Below are positions 1-22,253 of a DNA stretch of 22,253 bases, piece after piece. Under the pieces are notes generated by a model. It saw only the letters and a list, made by a program, of their open reading frames with translations, made no database searches and was not told the origin of the DNA. Both the position numbers and the translations under genes were made by a program. The stretch covers positions 1 to 22,253 of the forward strand of contig JALPMN010000574.1 in NCBI GenBank assembly GCA_024243835.1. Reading direction: 5' to 3'. How positions within the stretch are numbered: the stretch's first letter is position 1; each line of letters starts with the position of its first letter. This DNA is from Enteropsectra breve. Taxonomy: Eukaryota; Microsporidia.

Positions 1-33
1 CATTAAATAATACGTTAGAAACGAATGTTAACA
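1..33 (+). repeat. 3' end of the 5' LTR (partial)
   Basis: These bases match the last 33 bases of the complete LTR at 3639-3671 and end in TGTTAACA, the expected CA terminus. The reading frame of the downstream Gag-Pol ORF stays open through this LTR piece back to the window edge. Confidence 0.9.
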
Positions 34-3000
34 TGGCGACAACTACAAAATCAATAATAAGCAGCACGTTTAGCGGCACAGAAAACGAAGACATATCCAC
101 ATGGATATTAGATGCGAAGTTTATTCTGCAACTGCATGAAATGGAAGGAATTCCGGCACTAAGGCAGATATGCAGCGCATTAAGAGACGAAGCATTTGCC
201 TACGCAAGAGAATCACTATCAGCAAATCCTTATCTTCAGCCGAATGACTTGCTAAAACTCCTGGAAACAAGATTTGCGAGCGGTCTCAAGATTAAAAAAG
301 TCGCTCAAAAGTTTCTTCAAGGCTCTATTCCTGAAACAATCGACGACTACTTCATGATGATGCGCGACGCATCCTATTTGAGTCAGCATAATTATCTGTC
401 AGTCGCAGCGATTGTTGACCAGATAATTATACGTTCACCTGCAGAATTAAGAACAACACTATGGCAAGTAGCAAGCGATCTCAATAACGTCTATGAATTA
501 TCGAAAGCAGTAGAAAAGATATTACCGTTAGCATACAGTCAAGAAGGGAGCATGGCTCATGAGCAAGTAAATGCAAATAAAATGGCATTTAACAGAAATA
601 ATAATATTAATAATAACTCAGAAAAGAAATGGTGCGCGCTACACGGTAAAACGTATCACGATACAGATAGCTGTATAACAATACAAACTTTGAGGAAAAG
701 GCAGAGCGAAAAAAAAGCTATGAAATCGCAATTCAAGAAAGAATTTATTAAAGACGATTCAAACTATTCATTTACCTCAAAGTGTTTTAATAGTGAATCT
801 AAGTGTAACAACCCATTCGTGACTAAAGCAATTGTACAAAAAAGAATTTTTGATTGCATCCTTGATACGGGCGCCGACACATCTTTCATTCCAAGACACT
901 GTCTCCTAAATAATATTAGCATTATCCCAACGAATACTCAAGCACTAGCAGCTAACGGATCCAAAATAAAAATCATAGGGAAAGTCAGAAACCTCTCAAT
1001 CACAGTAAATAACACGGATATACAATTAACCACAGCACTAATTACAGACGACTCATTAAGTACAATATTAATCGGGGCTGATGCGTTAACTAGACACAAT
1101 GAAATACTTACCAACATATTAGCTCAAGAATCAACTCCCTGCATTGCTAATTCGGTACAGTACCCCATCCAAAACATATTAACTAAATTCGCTCCTCTCT
1201 TCTCAGATAATATTTCTCAATCAACATTATGCACAGTAATAAAACACAATATTAAAACTACAGACGAGCAAATAATTAGACAATCAAACGGGAGATTGCC
1301 AGTTTTTTGGGAAGAAGAAATACAGAAAGAAGTATCTAAACTATTGAAAAATGGAATAATTCGATATTCAGATAGCGGTTGGGCGTCAAGAATCAATCCG
1401 GTTAAAAAGAAAGACGGAAGCCTAAGACTTTGTATCGATTACAGAGCACTTAATAAGGTCACGATAAAAGACGCATATCCGATACCACGCATAGATGAAA
1501 TCGTTACAAAGCTCAGGAATGCAACTATATTCACAGTTTTAGATGCCACATCTGGCTATCACCAGATTGAGCTTTCCGAGGAGGACAAGTGCAAAACGGC
1601 ATTCTCGTTTAAAGGCATGCATTATGAGTTTAACCGAATGCCGTTTGGGCTATCAAATGCCCCAGCTACATTCCAGAGGGCAATGAACATCATCTTCAAT
1701 AACAAATTCAGCGAATTTGTAGCACCGTACTTCGATGATATAATTATCTTTTCAGAAAACATGAAGCAACATCAAAACCATCTGGAACAAGTATTTCACC
1801 GACTAAAAACATCAGGAATATATCTAAACAACAAGAAATGCAAATTCTTCAAATCCGAAGTTAAAATTTTAGGAAACATCATTTCAAAAGGAGAGATAAG
1901 GCCTGATCCAGAAAAAATCACGGCCATCAAGAATTACCCTCTTCCAAAAGACATAAGCGAATTAAGATCTTTCCTGGGTATAATAAATTACTGTAGGGAA
2001 TATGTTACCAAATTCGCAGATCACACTGCGGACCTATATGCACTTTTAAAAAACGAGTCGAAGAAAAGTAAAAAGACCATCGAATGGAACGAAAACCTAC
2101 GAGAAAGATTTAACACAGTGAAGCAAATAATAACACAAACAACTAAGCTTTCCCAGCCAGACTTCAACAAAGTTTTTATATTAACGACCGATGCATCAGA
2201 CAAAGCAATCGGCGCCATACTGGCTCAGAAAGATCATCACGGAAAAGAAAGAGTAATTAGCACATTTAGTAAAATCTTAGATAGCACACAGAAAAATTAT
2301 GGTATCACCGATAGAGAATTACTTGCGGTCGTGAAATCGATTGAGCACTATAGACACTTTTTAATAGGAAAGGAATTTATTCTTAGAACCGATCACAAAT
2401 GCCTAATTTATATGAATGAATCAAAAGACCAAACATCACGCTTAATGCGCTGGTCAATGAAACTGGCAGAATACCAATTTATAGTTGAATATATTAAAGG
2501 AGAAGACAACGCCGCGGACGGGTTCAGCAGAGCCTATGCAATACAAATGGATAGAGATCCAAAAATAAAGAATATAACCAATAGCGGCATGATAAAAGAA
2601 ATACTCAAGGAATACCATCTAACATCTGGCCACGGCTCAGCAACAGCAATGAAGTATCTCATAAAAAAGAAATACTACTGGAAAAGCATGTTTTCTGATA
2701 TCGATAAATATACACAATCGTGCGAAATTTGCCAGCAAAGTGGAAAAGCCCGAATTAATACTGAGAATAGAATCATAGAATCAAAATTTCCTAACCAAAT
2801 TTGGGAGATAGATATAATCGGAAGACTTCCAGAAACGGGCAAACATAATAAATTCATTTTAGTGATAATTGATCACTACACAAAGTGGGCTGAAACATTC
2901 GCAATAAACGCTAAAACGAGCAAAATGGTTACCTCTAAATTAACTACTGCAATAAATAAGCACGGGACACCATTTAGAATTATTTCAGATCAAGGATGTG

Positions 3001-3575
3001 AATTTAACAGCAATGAAGTCTCTAGATTTGCTGAAACTCACAACATAAAATGGGAATTCGCATCGCCGGCTCATCACACGACTATTGGAGCAGTAGAGAG
3101 AGCAATACAAACCATTTTTAATAAAATTAGAAAGTTAAATGATTTTAAAGCGAAAAATTGGGATCAAAAGTTAGAACAAGCGACATTAGCATACAATATT
3201 TCATATCAAAGAGCAATTGGTACATCGCCATTTATCTTAAACCACTTAACAGAGCCAAACCTCGAAATAGATAAAAAGACAACGACCTCAGAATTTTCAT
3301 ATAACAAAACACAAATTCTAAATAAGCGGGATCTTCACTGGAAAAAGTATGCGTCAAACAATATTCCTAAGGGCAAGATCAAAATCGATGACCAATTGAG
3401 AATAGGCGACGAAGTTCTTATATATCGAGATGTTTTAGGCGATGAATTTAAAAATAGATGGTCAACAGGATATACGATTAAAGAAATCATAATACCAGAC
3501 GCCTTCATAGTCTCTAAAAATAACAAAAACTACAGAGTAAACAAGAAACACATAAAGTTACATGTCAAAATCTAG
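33..3575 (+). CDS. Ty3/gypsy Gag-Pol polyprotein, single frame
   Basis: The product is a retrotransposon polyprotein that packages, copies and integrates the element. Counting from the ATG at 33 it has 1180 residues. A Gag-like region (about 1-240) contains a zinc-knuckle-like C201-x2-H204-x4-H209-x4-C214, where the usual second Cys is His. An aspartic protease follows with DTGA at 278-281. The reverse transcriptase has D504 (LDATSGYHQI) and YFDD at 566-569. RNase H carries D720 (TTDAS), E762 and D787. The integrase has an HHCC finger (H862, H867, C897, C900) and a DDE core (D927, D986, E1022, with 35 residues between the last two). The C-terminus (about 1120-1180) resembles a degenerate GPY/F module; no chromodomain is seen. 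There is no frameshift between Gag and Pol, so processing must come from the protease. The frame is open upstream to the window edge, and the 3' LTR shows an in-frame ATG 14 codons earlier, so the true start is probably inside the 5' LTR, outside the window. All catalytic residues checked are present. Confidence 0.95.
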   Translation: MATTTKSIISSTFSGTENEDISTWILDAKFILQLHEMEGIPALRQICSALRDEAFAYARESLSANPYLQPNDLLKLLETRFASGLKIKKVAQKFLQGSIPETIDDYFMMMRDASYLSQHNYLSVAAIVDQIIIRSPAELRTTLWQVASDLNNVYELSKAVEKILPLAYSQEGSMAHEQVNANKMAFNRNNNINNNSEKKWCALHGKTYHDTDSCITIQTLRKRQSEKKAMKSQFKKEFIKDDSNYSFTSKCFNSESKCNNPFVTKAIVQKRIFDCILDTGADTSFIPRHCLLNNISIIPTNTQALAANGSKIKIIGKVRNLSITVNNTDIQLTTALITDDSLSTILIGADALTRHNEILTNILAQESTPCIANSVQYPIQNILTKFAPLFSDNISQSTLCTVIKHNIKTTDEQIIRQSNGRLPVFWEEEIQKEVSKLLKNGIIRYSDSGWASRINPVKKKDGSLRLCIDYRALNKVTIKDAYPIPRIDEIVTKLRNATIFTVLDATSGYHQIELSEEDKCKTAFSFKGMHYEFNRMPFGLSNAPATFQRAMNIIFNNKFSEFVAPYFDDIIIFSENMKQHQNHLEQVFHRLKTSGIYLNNKKCKFFKSEVKILGNIISKGEIRPDPEKITAIKNYPLPKDISELRSFLGIINYCREYVTKFADHTADLYALLKNESKKSKKTIEWNENLRERFNTVKQIITQTTKLSQPDFNKVFILTTDASDKAIGAILAQKDHHGKERVISTFSKILDSTQKNYGITDRELLAVVKSIEHYRHFLIGKEFILRTDHKCLIYMNESKDQTSRLMRWSMKLAEYQFIVEYIKGEDNAADGFSRAYAIQMDRDPKIKNITNSGMIKEILKEYHLTSGHGSATAMKYLIKKKYYWKSMFSDIDKYTQSCEICQQSGKARINTENRIIESKFPNQIWEIDIIGRLPETGKHNKFILVIIDHYTKWAETFAINAKTSKMVTSKLTTAINKHGTPFRIISDQGCEFNSNEVSRFAETHNIKWEFASPAHHTTIGAVERAIQTIFNKIRKLNDFKAKNWDQKLEQATLAYNISYQRAIGTSPFILNHLTEPNLEIDKKTTTSEFSYNKTQILNKRDLHWKKYASNNIPKGKIKIDDQLRIGDEVLIYRDVLGDEFKNRWSTGYTIKEIIIPDAFIVSKNNKNYRVNKKHIKLHVKI
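34..44 (+). other. Candidate primer-binding site (tRNA-Ser-like)
   Basis: TGGCGACAACT starts directly after the LTR end with TGG, the complement of a tRNA CCA tail. Its reverse complement, AGTTGTCGCCA, matches the 3' end of budding-yeast tRNA-Ser as I remember it; the tRNA of this organism was not available. The site overlaps coding sequence: the A of the ATG at 33 is the last LTR base and TG belongs to this site. Confidence 0.6.
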
Positions 3576-3578
3576 CGC

Positions 3579-3584
3579 GAGGGA
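3579..3584 (+). other. Candidate polypurine tract
   Basis: GAGGGA lies directly before the TGTCG start of the 3' LTR, where the plus-strand primer of Ty3-type elements is expected. It is short and begins four bases after the Gag-Pol stop codon (TAG, 3573-3575). Confidence 0.6.
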
Positions 3585-3671
3585 TGTCGTTATGATACAA
3601 CTTAAAAGTTTTTACAAATTTTTAGCCCATGAATTCTTCATTAAATAATACGTTAGAAACGAATGTTAACA
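3585..3671 (+). repeat. 3' LTR, about 87 bp, TG...CA ends
   Basis: The left end is set by the purine tract and TGTCGTTATG, the right end by TGTTAACA matching the 5' LTR end. This length is very short for a Ty3-like LTR. It contains AAATTTTTAGCCCATG (3616-3631), resembling the start-codon context of the host genes in this window, and an in-frame ATG at 3629 that in the 5' copy would lead into Gag-Pol. The left boundary is inferred, because the 5' LTR is truncated. Confidence 0.8.
3611..3628 (+). promoter_or_regulatory. Putative host-like promoter inside the LTR
   Basis: The segment has an AAATTTTT stretch followed by AGCCC directly before ATG (3629). The same layout precedes the host-type genes at 18844 (AAATTTCACCC then ATG) and 11179 (CCCC then ATG). 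CCC-like and AAATTT-like motifs close to start codons are known microsporidian transcription signals. In the 5' LTR this copy would drive the element; in the 3' LTR it could drive a short transcript outward. Confidence 0.55.
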
Positions 3672-3830
3672 AATAGAACCTTCAACGTTTTTTTGGAGAA
3701 TGCCCTGTGTAAAGTACTCTTTACACAGTCTCACCGTTACCATGTTATTTGCAATGCCAATAAAGATTGCCGCGAGCAAACAAGTCAGCAGAGTAAGAAA
3801 TAGAATTCTTGCTTCTTTGGCTCCATTCAT
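3672..3830 (-). pseudogene. 5' fragment of a membrane-protein gene broken by the retrotransposon
   Basis: Read on the minus strand from ATG at 3830, this gives 53 codons that align without gaps to the N-terminus of the 204-residue protein at 4326-4940. Both contain the identical run VTVRLCKEYFTQG and a similar first membrane helix. The match ends at the LTR boundary, where a Cys codon and a TAA (3666-3668) come from LTR sequence. The rest of the gene should lie left of the 5' LTR, outside the window. A CCC (3838-3840, minus strand) precedes the start, as in neighbouring genes. It is therefore a tandem paralogue of the 4326-4940 gene, disrupted by the Ty3 insertion; whether it is still transcribed cannot be judged. 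Confidence 0.88.
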
Positions 3831-4325: not shown

Positions 4326-4334
4326 TTATTTATT
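4325..4334 (-). terminator. Polyadenylation signal overlapping the stop codon
   Basis: On the minus strand AATAAATAAA contains two overlapping AATAAA copies, and the TAA stop (4326-4328) of the four-helix membrane protein lies within it. Confidence 0.5.
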
Positions 4335-4940
4335 TAGTGTTTTATACTTTTTATAGCGCGAATAGACTACATACAATGATGATAGTATACCAAAGACTGT
4401 TCCCGCGGGATAAATTGTTCCATGAATATAGCAGCAGAGCATAAACTTTCGTTGTATTTCTAAGTTAGTCTTAAATTCTCCATTGATAAACTCTTTTTTG
4501 CAATATTGGTTAAGATGGCGCACAATTTTACTTTCATCAAATTGATTGAATAAAAAGTAGCAGATTATTCCTACTATCGCGGTCGTTGCTAGTATAGCCA
4601 AAATGCAAAAGAATACTGGTAGTAAAATGTTTCTTACTCCGTATCGTGGCCTCGGCCCGATTCTCATGCACAGATAAAGCACAAATCCGAAGATCAGCCC
4701 AGTGTCCCAAGTGGCAATTATTCCCCATAATACCGCAATTAGCTCCAGATCCGCACTAATTTTCTCCATAAGCTCTCCTACAAGACTACCCTTGGTCCTT
4801 TCCTGGTGAAAACCCTGTGTAAAATACTCTTTACACAATCTTACCGTTACCAAGTCATTTGAAATGCCGACAATACATGCTGCAAGAAAACAAATCAGCA
4901 TAGTGAAGAACAGAATTCCGATTTCCCGCATTATTTTCAT
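4326..4940 (-). CDS. Four-helix membrane protein, possibly of bacterial-type origin
   Basis: This 204-residue protein has predicted membrane helices at about 7-27, 66-91, 106-131 and 167-191, with a loop at 28-65 carrying VTVRLCKEYFTQG. The combination of an EYFT loop, a helix with IATWDTGLIFG (75-85) followed by RIGPRPR, and a last helix starting near H173 resembles, from memory, a family of uncharacterised bacterial inner-membrane proteins with EYFT and ATWWVGL motifs. I could not check this. The start at 4940 is supported because the broken paralogue at 3672-3830 aligns from the same Met, and CCCC (4947-4950, minus strand) lies six bases upstream. AATAAA overlaps the TAA stop. Function is unknown; a membrane role is the only safe inference. 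Confidence 0.85.
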   Translation of the reverse strand: MKIMREIGILFFTMLICFLAACIVGISNDLVTVRLCKEYFTQGFHQERTKGSLVGELMEKISADLELIAVLWGIIATWDTGLIFGFVLYLCMRIGPRPRYGVRNILLPVFFCILAILATTAIVGIICYFLFNQFDESKIVRHLNQYCKKEFINGEFKTNLEIQRKFMLCCYIHGTIYPAGTVFGILSSLYVVYSRYKKYKTLNK

Positions 4941-5059: not shown

Positions 5060-5299
5060 ATGGCGTTAGAACATTCAACCCTAAATAGTATCGAAGAAGA
5101 GGCTAGATTAAACTATAGACTTACAGAAGGCAAACTCTCTTTTCTGCTGGGATTTGCCGCTCTTGCAACTGTATGCTTCTTTCTAGGGTTGTTCGTATTA
5201 AGAAAAATTAGACCTTCAACGAGCAATGTCGCTTTACTCGAAGTAAAAGTAGATGCTCAGAGCACAGAGAATATGCTCAATGAAGGAGAAGCAAATTAA
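5060..5299 (+). CDS. Small single-helix membrane protein, function unknown
   Basis: A 79-residue protein with a charged N-terminal part, one hydrophobic helix at about 26-48, then KIRP and an acidic tail. There is no N-terminal signal peptide, so it may be a tail-region single-pass membrane protein. I recognise no family. Support for a real gene: ATG start, CCC and AAATTT motifs just upstream, and AATAAA overlapping the TAA stop (5298-5303), the same signals as larger genes here. It is divergently transcribed from the four-helix membrane protein, sharing a 119-bp intergenic region with promoter motifs for both. Confidence 0.7.
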   Translation: MALEHSTLNSIEEEARLNYRLTEGKLSFLLGFAALATVCFFLGLFVLRKIRPSTSNVALLEVKVDAQSTENMLNEGEAN

Positions 5300-11178: not shown

Positions 11179-11433
11179 ATGTTTATCCCAGTGTTGAGTC
11201 TTATCTTTTCCATGTCACAAGTGCAGTGCTCAAACCAGCCAGGACAAAATCCAAATATTTCTAATGCTGGTTACTCACCTCAGCAGGCAAATCAGCCATA
11301 TGGTTATAATGGAGCTGACAACACAAGAATTCACGTTCCACAGACTAACCAAATGAATAGACTAGGTCGTAAGCATCCGCTCCCCTGCCCCACACCAGAT
11401 GATAGAAGAAACTTCTTCAATCACGAGAACTAG
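11179..11433 (+). CDS. Short secreted protein sharing an N-terminal motif with the RING-like gene
   Basis: From the ATG at 11179 this gives 84 residues: a signal peptide (MFIPVLSLIFSMSQVQC), a low-complexity Asn/Gln/Pro/Tyr-rich segment (about 18-60), then RKHPLPCPTPDDRRNFFN near the C-terminus. The PLPCPTPDDRRNF motif matches LPCPMPNRKQ...LRNFL, just before the RING-like module of the 967-residue protein. The frame ends where that protein would continue, and no Cys-rich remnant was found in the following 400 bases. It may be a functional short secreted protein or the stub of a RING-family gene that lost its body. An upstream TTG extension would put charged residues before the signal peptide and is less likely. 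Confidence 0.6.
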   Translation: MFIPVLSLIFSMSQVQCSNQPGQNPNISNAGYSPQQANQPYGYNGADNTRIHVPQTNQMNRLGRKHPLPCPTPDDRRNFFNHEN

Positions 11434-16603: not shown

Positions 16604-18844
16604 TTAGATAGATGCTTCTGGCACAGCAACGCCTTTGCTGTCTGATCTCAACACAACGATAATCACTATAATCAAAGCAATTGCACCAATTGCTACAATC
16701 ACTATCTTTCCCTTGTGCTTATCGACTTTATCCATAAGTGTTGGCTTATTATTTGGGTCTGATGTCTTATTCTCAAGCCCTGATGCAATGGCAGTGTTTT
16801 GCTCCTTAAGGGCTACTAGTTTTGCTTTTATAGCCGCTATTACTTTAGTGAATCTGGCCTCAATATCAACATTCAGGTCATTCATATTGTTCAGAAGCAA
16901 GTTGTAGTTAGCCTCAGTTTTCAATTTTTTTTGATTGCTTTCTAATTTACGTGATGCCATGTTGGCGAAGGCCTCCAGTGGCTCGATTTCCTTCAACCGC
17001 TCATCAAGGAAGGCCAAATTCTTCTGAAGAATTTCCTTCTTATTTTTGAGATTCTCGTCGGTTGGCACATTTTTAAGACGCTCATCGATCTGAGTTATCA
17101 GCTTGCCCATGTTTTGTTTCAGTGCCTCATTTTCTTCCTTGTTGTTTATCTCAGCAAGCTTGCTTTTTCCGTCCTCCAGGATTTCTGCTAGTTTGATAGC
17201 GAGATCCTGGCATTTTGCGCGCTCAACTGCCTCCTTCTCACTGTTATTCACGACCTGAACAGGATCCTCTTTTTCAGCGCCCTCCGGCTTTTGTTCTGTT
17301 GGTATTTTCATTTCGTGCGAATCATCAACTACCGGTGGATCGCTTGATTTTGAATTAGCAAGCTCCTCTATAAAGTCTTTGTACTCAGGATGTTGTTTCA
17401 AAAACGCCAGTGCTTTGCTCCCATCCTTATTGAGAGTAAAATGTTCATTACAGCAATATAAATATCCATTACTATGGCTTGGTCCAAAAAGCAGTTCTCT
17501 CATCAAATTGCTTATTTCTTTCATTAATTCGTTTATTGCCATTAAATTGCTATAGTATTGCGTCTTAACCGTCCTGCTCACACATTCTACTTCAGCTTTT
17601 TTAACCTCCTTATCATCCATCATATTTTTATTCTTCTCGTATGCGTCATCTAAAATATTAACAATTTTGAGGATTATGTTCATGCTTTCTTTCTCTGTGC
17701 TTTTATCACGCTTAATTTTCTCTGCTGCATGCTTAAAAGCACCTGTCAGATTATAATTCTCAATATTTATCTTATCCATGTTTATAGTATCTTTATCCAT
17801 CTCATTCTTCAAATTAAAAGCATTCAATCTAGATCGACTAAATAATTTGAATTTTAAGTCATTCAAAAAATCCTCATAACAATAACCTTTAGAATAATTA
17901 GTCAAAATCACTTCATCAACTAATGGCGTATGGGTAGTTGGAGTTTCACTATTTTTATTCTTCTCATAATCGTTTTGCATTTTTAAGAACTGCAATGCAG
18001 CCTCATAGCTCATAAATAGCCCCTGAGGAAGTAAAGCTGAGCCAGTGGCGCAATTTAATGATCCTTCGTTAAAGAATTTTTCTTCTAAATCTGTGCGTAT
18101 TTTATCCATACAATCAGCTATGCTTAATAGTCTAATGCGATACTCATCCTTGCTGGCTTTAATATTGTTTTGAGTTGCTGTAGTATCACCATTGAGCTCT
18201 TCGATGGTCAAAGGTTTCTTATTTCCAGGCTTTAGTATGTTTCTTCCTTGCTGTATTGAGGTTATTTTTTCATTATAATTCTTAATTTTCTGTTGTGCCT
18301 CTTCTTCTAGCTTTACAAATTCGTTTTTAGTTTGGACAAACGTGTGCTCTAACACTACTATCGTTTCAACCAGAACTTTAGTGTACTTCTGCGCCTCTTC
18401 AATGGTTATAGAACTACCAAATAGTTGTGTACTTGCACTTTCTGCAGCTTTACTTATGTTGAATTCATTTATAATAACAGGATCCATTGTTCTGTCTTCT
18501 CGCTTGAAATCAAGTTTACCGTATAAAAAGGCATAATGATCAATACACTGCTTTTCCATATGATTGAAAAATTTTTTATAAAAACTTTTTACACTACCGT
18601 TGTGTTCAATAGCTAACGTAGTAGATACAAGAGTGTTGTTATCGTCAGCATTATGAGGAGGCACTGTTTCACCCTTTGGATTGGGCTGTGGAATTGGACT
18701 TTCATGCGCTTTTTCTACTTGATCACCGCTGATTTTAGCTGCTTGTGGTGATGAAAGTGGTGTTGGTCCTACTGTTTCACCTGATGGCACACATTTGCTG
18801 ATTGCAATCAATGTCAGTATCATGTCATATCCGTTGAACAGCAT
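16604..18844 (-). CDS. Putative surface protein, duplicated helical domain, C-terminal anchor
   Basis: A 746-residue protein with an N-terminal signal-like segment (MLFNGYDMILTLIAISKCVP), a Pro/Thr-rich stretch to about 85, and two related helical domains: about 88-295 (INEFNISKAAESA, ETIVVLEHTFVQT, AALQFLKMQNDYE) and about 322-495 (IENYNLTGAFKHAAEKI, ILKIVNILDDAYE, ALAFLKQHPEYKDF). A Glu/Lys-rich coiled-coil-like region (535-690), one membrane helix (714-733) and the short tail SKGVAVPEASI follow. The upstream-in-tandem gene at 19175-21109 shares the signal segment, both domains and the anchor. A signal peptide plus a single C-terminal helix predicts an exposed N-terminal ectodomain; the function is unknown. 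The start is supported by CCC touching the ATG, with AAATTTTTT just upstream. Confidence 0.9.
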   Translation of the reverse strand: MLFNGYDMILTLIAISKCVPSGETVGPTPLSSPQAAKISGDQVEKAHESPIPQPNPKGETVPPHNADDNNTLVSTTLAIEHNGSVKSFYKKFFNHMEKQCIDHYAFLYGKLDFKREDRTMDPVIINEFNISKAAESASTQLFGSSITIEEAQKYTKVLVETIVVLEHTFVQTKNEFVKLEEEAQQKIKNYNEKITSIQQGRNILKPGNKKPLTIEELNGDTTATQNNIKASKDEYRIRLLSIADCMDKIRTDLEEKFFNEGSLNCATGSALLPQGLFMSYEAALQFLKMQNDYEKNKNSETPTTHTPLVDEVILTNYSKGYCYEDFLNDLKFKLFSRSRLNAFNLKNEMDKDTINMDKINIENYNLTGAFKHAAEKIKRDKSTEKESMNIILKIVNILDDAYEKNKNMMDDKEVKKAEVECVSRTVKTQYYSNLMAINELMKEISNLMRELLFGPSHSNGYLYCCNEHFTLNKDGSKALAFLKQHPEYKDFIEELANSKSSDPPVVDDSHEMKIPTEQKPEGAEKEDPVQVVNNSEKEAVERAKCQDLAIKLAEILEDGKSKLAEINNKEENEALKQNMGKLITQIDERLKNVPTDENLKNKKEILQKNLAFLDERLKEIEPLEAFANMASRKLESNQKKLKTEANYNLLLNNMNDLNVDIEARFTKVIAAIKAKLVALKEQNTAIASGLENKTSDPNNKPTLMDKVDKHKGKIVIVAIGAIALIIVIIVVLRSDSKGVAVPEASI

Positions 18845-21411: not shown

Positions 21412-22253
21412 TTAAACGAGCTCTGCTCCAGCAGCACCGCCTTTTCCCATCGTAGTGAGTAAAGCAACGCCACAGATGGCAAAAAAACCAAGAGCCACGA
21501 CTCCCACTATTATCTTTATCATGTGCTTATCGAAGAATTTGCTCATCGAGTTTTTGTTGTCCGTGCTGTCATCGTTGCTATTGCCTTGTTTATCATCGCC
21601 TTTCTCAGCATTTTTTCTCTCAGCATTTTTTCTCTCAGCATTTTTTCTCTCAGCATTTTTTCTCTCAGCATTTTTTCTCTCGAGCTCTCTTTTCTCTGCT
21701 TCAAGCTTCTTTTTCTCAAGCTCTTTTCTCTCGAGCTCTTTCCTCACAGCATTTTTTCTCTCATGCTCTTTTTCTTCAGCAGCTTTTCTCTCGAGCTCCT
21801 GCCTCTCAGCATCCCTTGTTTCGAGCTCTTGCCTCTCAGCAGCTTTTTTCTCGCGCTCTATTTTCTCACGCTCTATTTTCTCACGCTCTATTTTCTCACG
21901 CTCTATTTTCTCACGCTCTATTTTCTCACGCTCTTGCCTCTCAGCATCCCTTTTCTCAGCATCCTTTTTCTCACGCTCTATTCTCTCGAGCTGTTTCTTT
22001 TCGATCTCAAGAAGTGAATTTAGTACTGATGAAATTCGAGTAACTTCTTTTGCATAGTAATCAAGTTTAGCCTTCAACTTTGGCAGTTTTTCTTGAATAG
22101 CATTAGAATTAGTTTCTTCACTAGCTATAGCAGCTAAGTGTTTATCAATATTACTTGCATCATTAGCATTCAAATCAATTGCACTTAATTCAGCTATTCT
22201 ATTTTCTATATCACGTAAGAATTCTGCAAGTTCCTGTATAAATATTTCCAAAT
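21412..22253 (-). CDS. Repeat-helix membrane protein, 5' end outside the window
   Basis: The frame is open to the window edge, so the N-terminus is missing; 280 codons are visible. They encode a helical segment, then about 130 residues of Glu/Arg/Lys-rich five-residue repeats (EREKI-type and ERKNA-type) likely to form a long charged single helix or coiled coil. A linker (KGDDKQGNSNDDS), the sequence MSKFFDKHMIKIIVG leading into one membrane helix, and the tail GKGGAAGAELV follow. The anchor and tail match the two upstream paralogues (MDKVDKHKGKIVIV and MSKIYAHKGKILIG, with SKGGAVSEAAI-type tails), although the ectodomain differs. It appears to be a third member built on the same anchor module. 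A signal peptide is expected beyond the edge. Confidence 0.85.
   Translation of the reverse strand, partial: LEIFIQELAEFLRDIENRIAELSAIDLNANDASNIDKHLAAIASEETNSNAIQEKLPKLKAKLDYYAKEVTRISSVLNSLLEIEKKQLERIEREKKDAEKRDAERQEREKIEREKIEREKIEREKIEREKIEREKKAAERQELETRDAERQELERKAAEEKEHERKNAVRKELERKELEKKKLEAEKRELERKNAERKNAERKNAERKNAERKNAEKGDDKQGNSNDDSTDNKNSMSKFFDKHMIKIIVGVVALGFFAICGVALLTTMGKGGAAGAELV
21600..21685 (-). repeat. 15-bp tandem repeat encoding ERKNA units
   Basis: The unit TTTTTTCTCTCAGCA (plus strand) repeats about five times with almost no change. Each unit encodes five residues in frame, so copy-number changes would keep the gene open. Confidence 0.9.
21846..21935 (-). repeat. 15-bp tandem repeat encoding EREKI units
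   Basis: The unit TTTTCTCACGCTCTA (plus strand) repeats about six times, nearly identical. It lies in the same gene as the ERKNA repeat, with more diverged units between the two arrays. Confidence 0.9.

Follow-up and report, generated by a model that had tools for sequence, protein, structure and literature searches.

Where does translation of the Gag-Pol polyprotein begin in the Ty3/gypsy retrotransposon that occupies positions 1-3671 of contig JALPMN010000574.1 of Enteropsectra breve, a microsporidian parasite of nematodes? This contig of 22,253 nucleotides, called the window below, is contig C33 of the genome set searched, which holds 3.96 Mb in 155 contigs; the left end of the element is cut off by the contig start. 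A first-pass annotation of the window had proposed that the polyprotein starts inside the long terminal repeat (LTR) and is translated through the primer-binding site (PBS), a proposal that is well supported by the comparison of elements given below. The element is quite probably a single-polyprotein Ty3/gypsy element of a microsporidian, the LTR of which doubles as a host-style gene start, with translation running from the LTR ATG through the PBS.

The proposed LTR start codon and its reading frame

The 3' LTR of the element is 87 bp long (3585-3671, plus strand; TGTCG...TTAACA) and was recognized as a repeat of positions 1-33; the same LTR is present in contig C132, with relatives in C40 and C95. 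It contains AAATTTTTAGCCCATG at 3616-3631, in which the putative host-type promoter motif AAATTTTTAGCCC (3616-3628), also found before host genes and in other LTRs, is directly followed by an ATG at 3629-3631. The layout of AAATTT, CCC and ATG is present as first described, and it corresponds to the AAATTT-like and CCC-like signal just before the ATG that marks microsporidian gene starts. The ATG and the 13 codons after it form an open leader in Gag-Pol phase (3629-3670, plus strand), in agreement with the 14 codons originally counted. The codon after these begins with base 3671 (A); where the LTR stands at the 5' end, this codon reads A|TG across the LTR/PBS join. At the 5' end, positions 1-33 are the last 33 bp of the 5' LTR (LTR positions 55-87, an exact repeat of 3639-3671), and the PBS TGGCGACAAC follows at 34-43, with a 10-base complementarity to the 3' end plus CCA of tRNA-Ser(AGA), the gene of which lies at C135:51594-51674 on the minus strand. 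The Gag-Pol frame is open over 1190 codons on the plus strand, from base 3 to the TAG stop at 3573-3575. On the level of the sequence, an LTR with AAATTT, CCC and ATG, and a frame that runs through the LTR end and the PBS into Gag-Pol, are shown.

The contig starts at LTR position 55 and so lacks the 54 bases before it, among them the ATG, which would lie 10 bases further up. For this reason the join from this ATG to Gag-Pol is taken from the 3' copy. The claim that the 5' frame enters Gag-Pol without a stop stands for the visible part, while its ATG is reconstructed from the 3' LTR. A search of the assembly for the missing 5' LTR starts of C33 and C132, with up to 3 mismatches allowed, was without result. 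Window 1-3671 and C132:1-3671 (locus L007) share the same start base inside the 5' LTR and all 3671 bases, and their 3' flanks differ; these may be either two recent insertions or a single copy placed twice by the assembly.

A search of the genome with a piece of Pol gave 45 matches. Repeats were compared in 14 loci (L012-L025) that hold 13 elements, the C101 element being spread over two loci, and LTR pairs were picked without regard to ATGs. Complete pairs were obtained for eight elements, with LTR sizes, hand-trimmed for target-site duplications and chance matches, of 49 bp (C88), 60 (C143), 68 (C105), 70 (C60), 80 (C129), 110 (C136), 119 (C116) and 178 bp (C144). Across this size range of 49-178 bp, 8/8 elements have an LTR ATG from which an open frame passes through the PBS into Gag in phase; the product of their shuffle probabilities, calculated by hand, is about 1e-6. 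After addition of four elements by their 5' ends (C101, C64, C91 and C150), an open LTR ATG in frame through the PBS was found in all 12 elements whose frame extends downstream for 98 codons or more, where dinucleotide shuffles gave an expectation of 2.1 (p 2e-10). The shuffles used an LTR length of 87 for the four added elements and of 147 out of 178 for C144; C60 and C105 are close relatives and not fully independent in these counts. The pattern is general, as read from these frames: it occurs in every E. breve element with a testable 5' end and a downstream frame. The start-codon reading of the first-pass annotation stands, and it is wider than originally stated, though an in-frame rival ATG at 33-35 had been overlooked.

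The searches for LTR ends gave 24 and 5 places, 11 of the 24 being judged by eye as non-LTR ends. Eighteen places entered the frame test and six were left uncounted. Four of these (C97, C99, C100 and C135) leave no more than 16-78 nt up to the contig end; read by hand they fit the pattern, with C99 and C100 similar to each other; in C109 the frame is broken after 25 codons; the sixth is C74, described below. The 3' LTRs of C33/C132, C130 and C40 and the solo LTR of C95 are without a testable 5' end. Breaks occur further downstream in several copies (C129, C143, C101, C91 and C150), and the LTR ATG is also where two E. breve proteins, ENBRE01_0423 and ENBRE01_0846, begin as deposited. As a separate observation, the LTR coding leaders of C144 (L016) and C109 (L055) each include a GC-rich stretch, in contrast to the AT-rich rest.

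The PBS is read in one phase in nine of the twelve elements (MAT..., LAPEAG..., MVES...) and in another in three (C144 VGDN..., C88 DGTR..., C150 HGDN...), and in each of them the LTR ATG sits in whichever phase the PBS is read. The fragment in C150 is related to C144 in Gag (E 7e-13). A second PBS class, TGGCACCCGAWGC, is present in C60, C64, C88, C97 and C105 and fits a tRNA-Lys(UUU) gene, as matched by eye. On a tree of a reverse transcriptase piece (13 rows from this genome and 10 others; 6 of 20 inner branches well supported, C144 on a long branch), the types of phase and junction Met are distributed over deep branches with 4 changes, the least possible being 2. There is no ATG at the junction in C60, C105 and C144, and the next in-frame ATG of C60 lies 299 nt beyond the repeat; C88 and C150 do have a junction ATG, which is out of frame and opens a frame of its own that closes after 7 codons. 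In these five elements, which lack an in-frame junction ATG, the LTR ATG is the only plausible AUG start.

The coding frame also reaches the other repeat in some cases. In 4/10 elements (C136, C116, C129 and C144; L013-L016) the frame runs on into the 3' LTR, its stop codon ending 10-44 nt past the start of that repeat, and the purine tract is therefore read as protein in these four. For the window element, 9 nt separate the end of the stop codon from the 3' LTR; the purine-rich CGCGAGGGA (3576-3584, plus strand), which adjoins this LTR, is presumed to be the polypurine tract.

Promoter motif, predicted leader length and candidate RNA end

A CCC lies within 8 nt before the LTR ATG in 9/12 elements, with 0.17 expected. 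For the host genome, 26 open reading frames (ORFs) of at least 150 aa were sampled; CCC is present at -12 to -1 in 13/26 and at -24 to -13 in 0/26. One of the 13 is the C143 element itself (locus L066), which leaves 12/25 without it. The first-pass annotation had pointed to the same layout at three host-type genes of the window. This holds for the gene at 18844 (AAATTTCACCC-ATG), while the gene at 5060 has AAATTTAGGACCC but 8 extra bases before its ATG, and the gene at 11179 has GGCCCC-ATG without a clean AAATTT. A CCC-type gene-start signal is also described for Encephalitozoon cuniculi, with leaders below 7 nt by rapid amplification of cDNA ends (PMC2803860, in the part of the paper compared). 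The LTR promoter can be considered host-style, as first proposed, and is supported as sequence.

The RNA of a retrotransposon must start inside the LTR to carry R, and the leader can therefore be no longer than the part of the LTR before the ATG. This part measures 44 nt in the window element and only 29 nt in C88 and C143, so the proposed adaptation of these elements to very short leaders is a fair inference. The LTR also holds a candidate signal for the RNA end: ATTAAA is found at 3640-3645 (plus strand) within the leader of the window element, and A[AT]TAAA is present in 13/13 LTRs, where a mononucleotide shuffle gave 4.6. Compression of promoter, start codon and a candidate RNA 3' end signal in one short repeat, as the first reading of this LTR had it, is consistent with these motifs.

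On the favoured explanation, transcription would start at or near the CCC, and the RNA would therefore be almost without an untranslated leader. Translation would begin at the LTR ATG, which would make R and U5 coding, and in most of the elements the first cDNA product would be only some 20-50 nt long. The candidate poly(A)-type signal would end the RNA inside or near the 3' LTR. Where an in-frame junction ATG exists, as in the window, some initiation there would be possible too.

The alternative that survives best keeps translation from the LTR ATG and places the RNA start well upstream of the CCC, which would then be incidental, with a promoter that is not of the host near-leaderless type. 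Three of the 12 LTRs fit such a view in having no CCC inside 8 nt (C116 has TCC, C64 has ACC, and the CCC of C150 is 9-11 nt off), and long leaders exist in the microsporidian E. aedis, the mRNAs of which have leaders of 180 nt on average (PMC2474625, as far as the compared part of that study goes). The short E. cuniculi leaders and the sharp placement of CCC before host ORFs of this genome point the other way. Moreover, the leaders of C88 and C143 cannot exceed 29 nt if their RNA starts in the LTR. Altogether an upstream RNA start appears rather unlikely.

The ATG at the LTR/PBS junction

In the window, a second in-frame ATG is formed at 33-35 (plus strand) by the last base of the LTR and the first two bases of the PBS. 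According to a further explanation, translation of window-type elements starts at this junction ATG, the LTR ATG being bypassed by reason of a too short leader, or partly used. In favour of this, the ATG at the junction is in frame with a G directly after it, and both ATGs are present in the window-type elements C136, C116, C129, C101 and C91. On the other hand, it arises from the ...A of the LTR and the TGG of the PBS, and as a product of these two it needs no selection. A junction start leaves unexplained why all elements with both ATGs in frame (7/7: the five above, C143 and C64) have an open, in-phase LTR ATG, and it cannot apply to the five elements without an in-frame junction ATG (C60, C105, C144, C88 and C150).

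Relatives from other species bear on the same choice. A protein search with Pol scored 6025 relatives, of which 120 were listed, and the counts given here were made among the 119 matches listed other than the window. A start Met together with MA[TS] within the first 40 residues is present in 28 of these matches; in P0039 MA[TS] occurs with no start Met. In 19/28 of the listed matches the Met lies 8-22 residues before MA[TS], and in the remaining 9/28 the protein begins at MA[TS], being annotated from the junction ATG, though some of these may be contig-end cuts. The residue preceding MA[TS] is D or N in 19/19, as an LTR end of GACA, GATA, AACA or AATA in that phase would give. Where a source is named for these 19, it is Nosema granulosis, Vairimorpha necatrix, Pancytospora philotis, Pseudoloma neurophilia or E. 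breve, and two that stand under the names of bacterial metagenome-assembled genomes are presumably misbinned. Eight more proteins among the matches listed, one of them from N. bombycis (Q15F60), have [NQS]LA[TS] without the junction Met; the automatic list held 9 entries, from which P0100, a Closterium protein, was dropped as a false match. A second search from C105 scored 539 relatives, and the 37 listed of at least 830 aa (P0121-P0167) were counted by hand: 6 show M-x(4-6)-LAP[DEN], four of them with the common leader FTSNSY, 8 have a short leader beginning with Met in front of MAP[DEN], and the other 23 fit neither pattern. No relative was found among IMG/VR viral contigs scanned with a 500-aa piece. 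In these species the LTR/PBS border is placed by the PBS-coded residues of the proteins, not by DNA. Gene callers favour long frames, and for this reason the matching N-termini support the pattern without proving it. Taking the elements and the relatives together, a start at the junction ATG as the main route is distinctly improbable.

Several observations weigh against a start at the LTR ATG. Selection on the leader peptides could not be shown, since the leaders are mostly not conserved and, judged by eye, offer too few codons and close pairs for a comparison of synonymous and nonsynonymous change. C74 has a PBS-like junction and neither an LTR ATG nor a frame of more than 53 codons. No LTRs were found at C83 and at C150:6627-7829, where they were looked for, and the C83 frame starts with an ATG after AGAGAGG, without CCC. 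The refuting condition named for this start, an interruption of the frame by a stop or frameshift on the way from the LTR ATG to the end of the repeat, was not encountered in any copy seen (C132 is identical, C40 and C95 are open). Conservation of the CCC-ATG itself, which had been suggested as a check, is complete in C132, while C40 has CCG for CCC and the solo LTR in C95 has GTG in place of the ATG.

The weakest explanation, that the open LTR frame is due to chance or is a by-product of LTR conservation for DNA or RNA functions, could draw on the shortness of the frames (6-34 codons) and on leaders mostly unlike between families, but is very close to excluded by the count of 12/12 against 2.1 expected and by an LTR ATG phase that tracks the PBS reading phase, the shuffles and this covariation together ruling out a chance open frame.

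Element architecture and known systems

Pfam searches on pieces of the window placed a retroviral-type aspartic protease at 831-1094 (PF13975, piece 801-1199), a reverse transcriptase at 1401-1877 (PF00078, piece 1200-2600), an RNase H at 2160-2474 (PF17917) and an integrase zinc-binding domain plus core at 2601-3074 (PF17921 and PF00665, piece 2601-3572), all on the plus strand. This order of domains is that of the Metaviridae (Ty3/gypsy). Membership of the Ty1/copia group (Pseudoviridae) was ruled out, the integrase lying after RNase H and not before the reverse transcriptase. Two LTRs are indicated by the exact match of the 33 visible bp of the 5' LTR to the 3' LTR, and by the full pairs in the eight related elements. 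The tRNA match of the PBS covers 10 bases, where the profile of the International Committee on Taxonomy of Viruses (ICTV) gives 18 nt (PMC7879559).

Target-site duplications of 5 bp were read by hand in 6/8 paired elements (C116, C144, C60, C105, C143 and C88); none was seen in C129, C136 ends with its contig, and the 5' flank of the window copy is off the contig. The LTR termini are AG...CT in C60 (L017) and C105 (L018) and AG...GA in C88 (L022), not TG...CA, with 5-bp duplications read by hand. In L021 (3678-3826), a tRNA-Leu(AAG) gene on the other strand lies within a few bases of the end of the C143 element, which is a single case. In the window, the 3' flank at 3689-3808 is a 78%-identical copy of 4799-4918, the start region of a membrane-type gene at 4326-4940 on the minus strand; the element therefore adjoins a duplicated gene fragment. 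At 21556-22008 a 15-bp tandem repeat lies in a long minus-strand frame and encodes Lys/Glu/Arg-rich repeats.

The mag element of Bombyx mori also has a very short LTR, of about 77 bp; we know of no LTR start codon in mag or in other elements with very short LTRs. Ty1 of Saccharomyces cerevisiae is a copia-type element with the integrase before the reverse transcriptase and with a long 5' leader before the GAG ATG, which is itself reportedly inside the LTR. The part of the Ty1 literature compared here describes a PBS that lies within the GAG frame, right after the 334-bp LTR, and PBS changes that keep the GAG amino acids (PMC5454406), so that translation through the PBS is already known from Ty1 and is shared with the E. 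breve elements. Ty1 is unlike the window element in its 334-bp LTR and in having no CCC-ATG start of the host type. In a paper on microsporidian Ty3/gypsy groups (Anncaliia, Nosema, Edhazardia and others; PMC4202319), the terms 'start codon' and 'primer binding' are absent from the main text, and an LTR start or PBS translation is not described in the parts compared. For canonical Metaviridae, the ICTV profile gives non-coding LTRs with a U3 of 200-1200 nt and a U5 of 75-250 nt (PMC7879559). The E. breve elements resemble these in the order of protease, reverse transcriptase, RNase H and integrase, in having LTRs, a tRNA-primed PBS and a purine tract, and differ in that the 5' LTR end, and in some also the 3' LTR start, is coding and the whole LTR measures 49-178 bp. 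An 87-bp LTR with an open in-frame ATG departs from the canonical account, which is a description and not a requirement. Searches of a library of open-licence papers listed no report in which a microsporidian element has its start codon in the LTR or a PBS that is translated. Translation of the PBS is known from Ty1; what is new here is a Ty3/gypsy version fused to a putative microsporidian near-leaderless promoter.

On a wider reading, for which we see the balance as even, the whole class of microsporidian Ty3/gypsy elements would have given up non-coding leaders. Their RNA would start practically at the LTR ATG, and R, U5, the PBS and, in some, the purine tract and the 3' LTR start would be coding. 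The LTR would be reduced down to 49 bp, with a U3 consisting of a host-type promoter of about 30 bp and a first cDNA of about 20 nt. More generally, the proposed arrangement would mean that a mobile element has adopted the compressed gene architecture of its host, with one repeat of 49-178 bp providing the promoter, the start codon, a probable RNA end and the substrate for integration, and it bears on the minimal needs of an LTR. It would give gene-start rules for many microsporidian retroelements, and it would make it testable how packaging, priming and strand transfer work when an RNA codes for protein almost from its first bases on.
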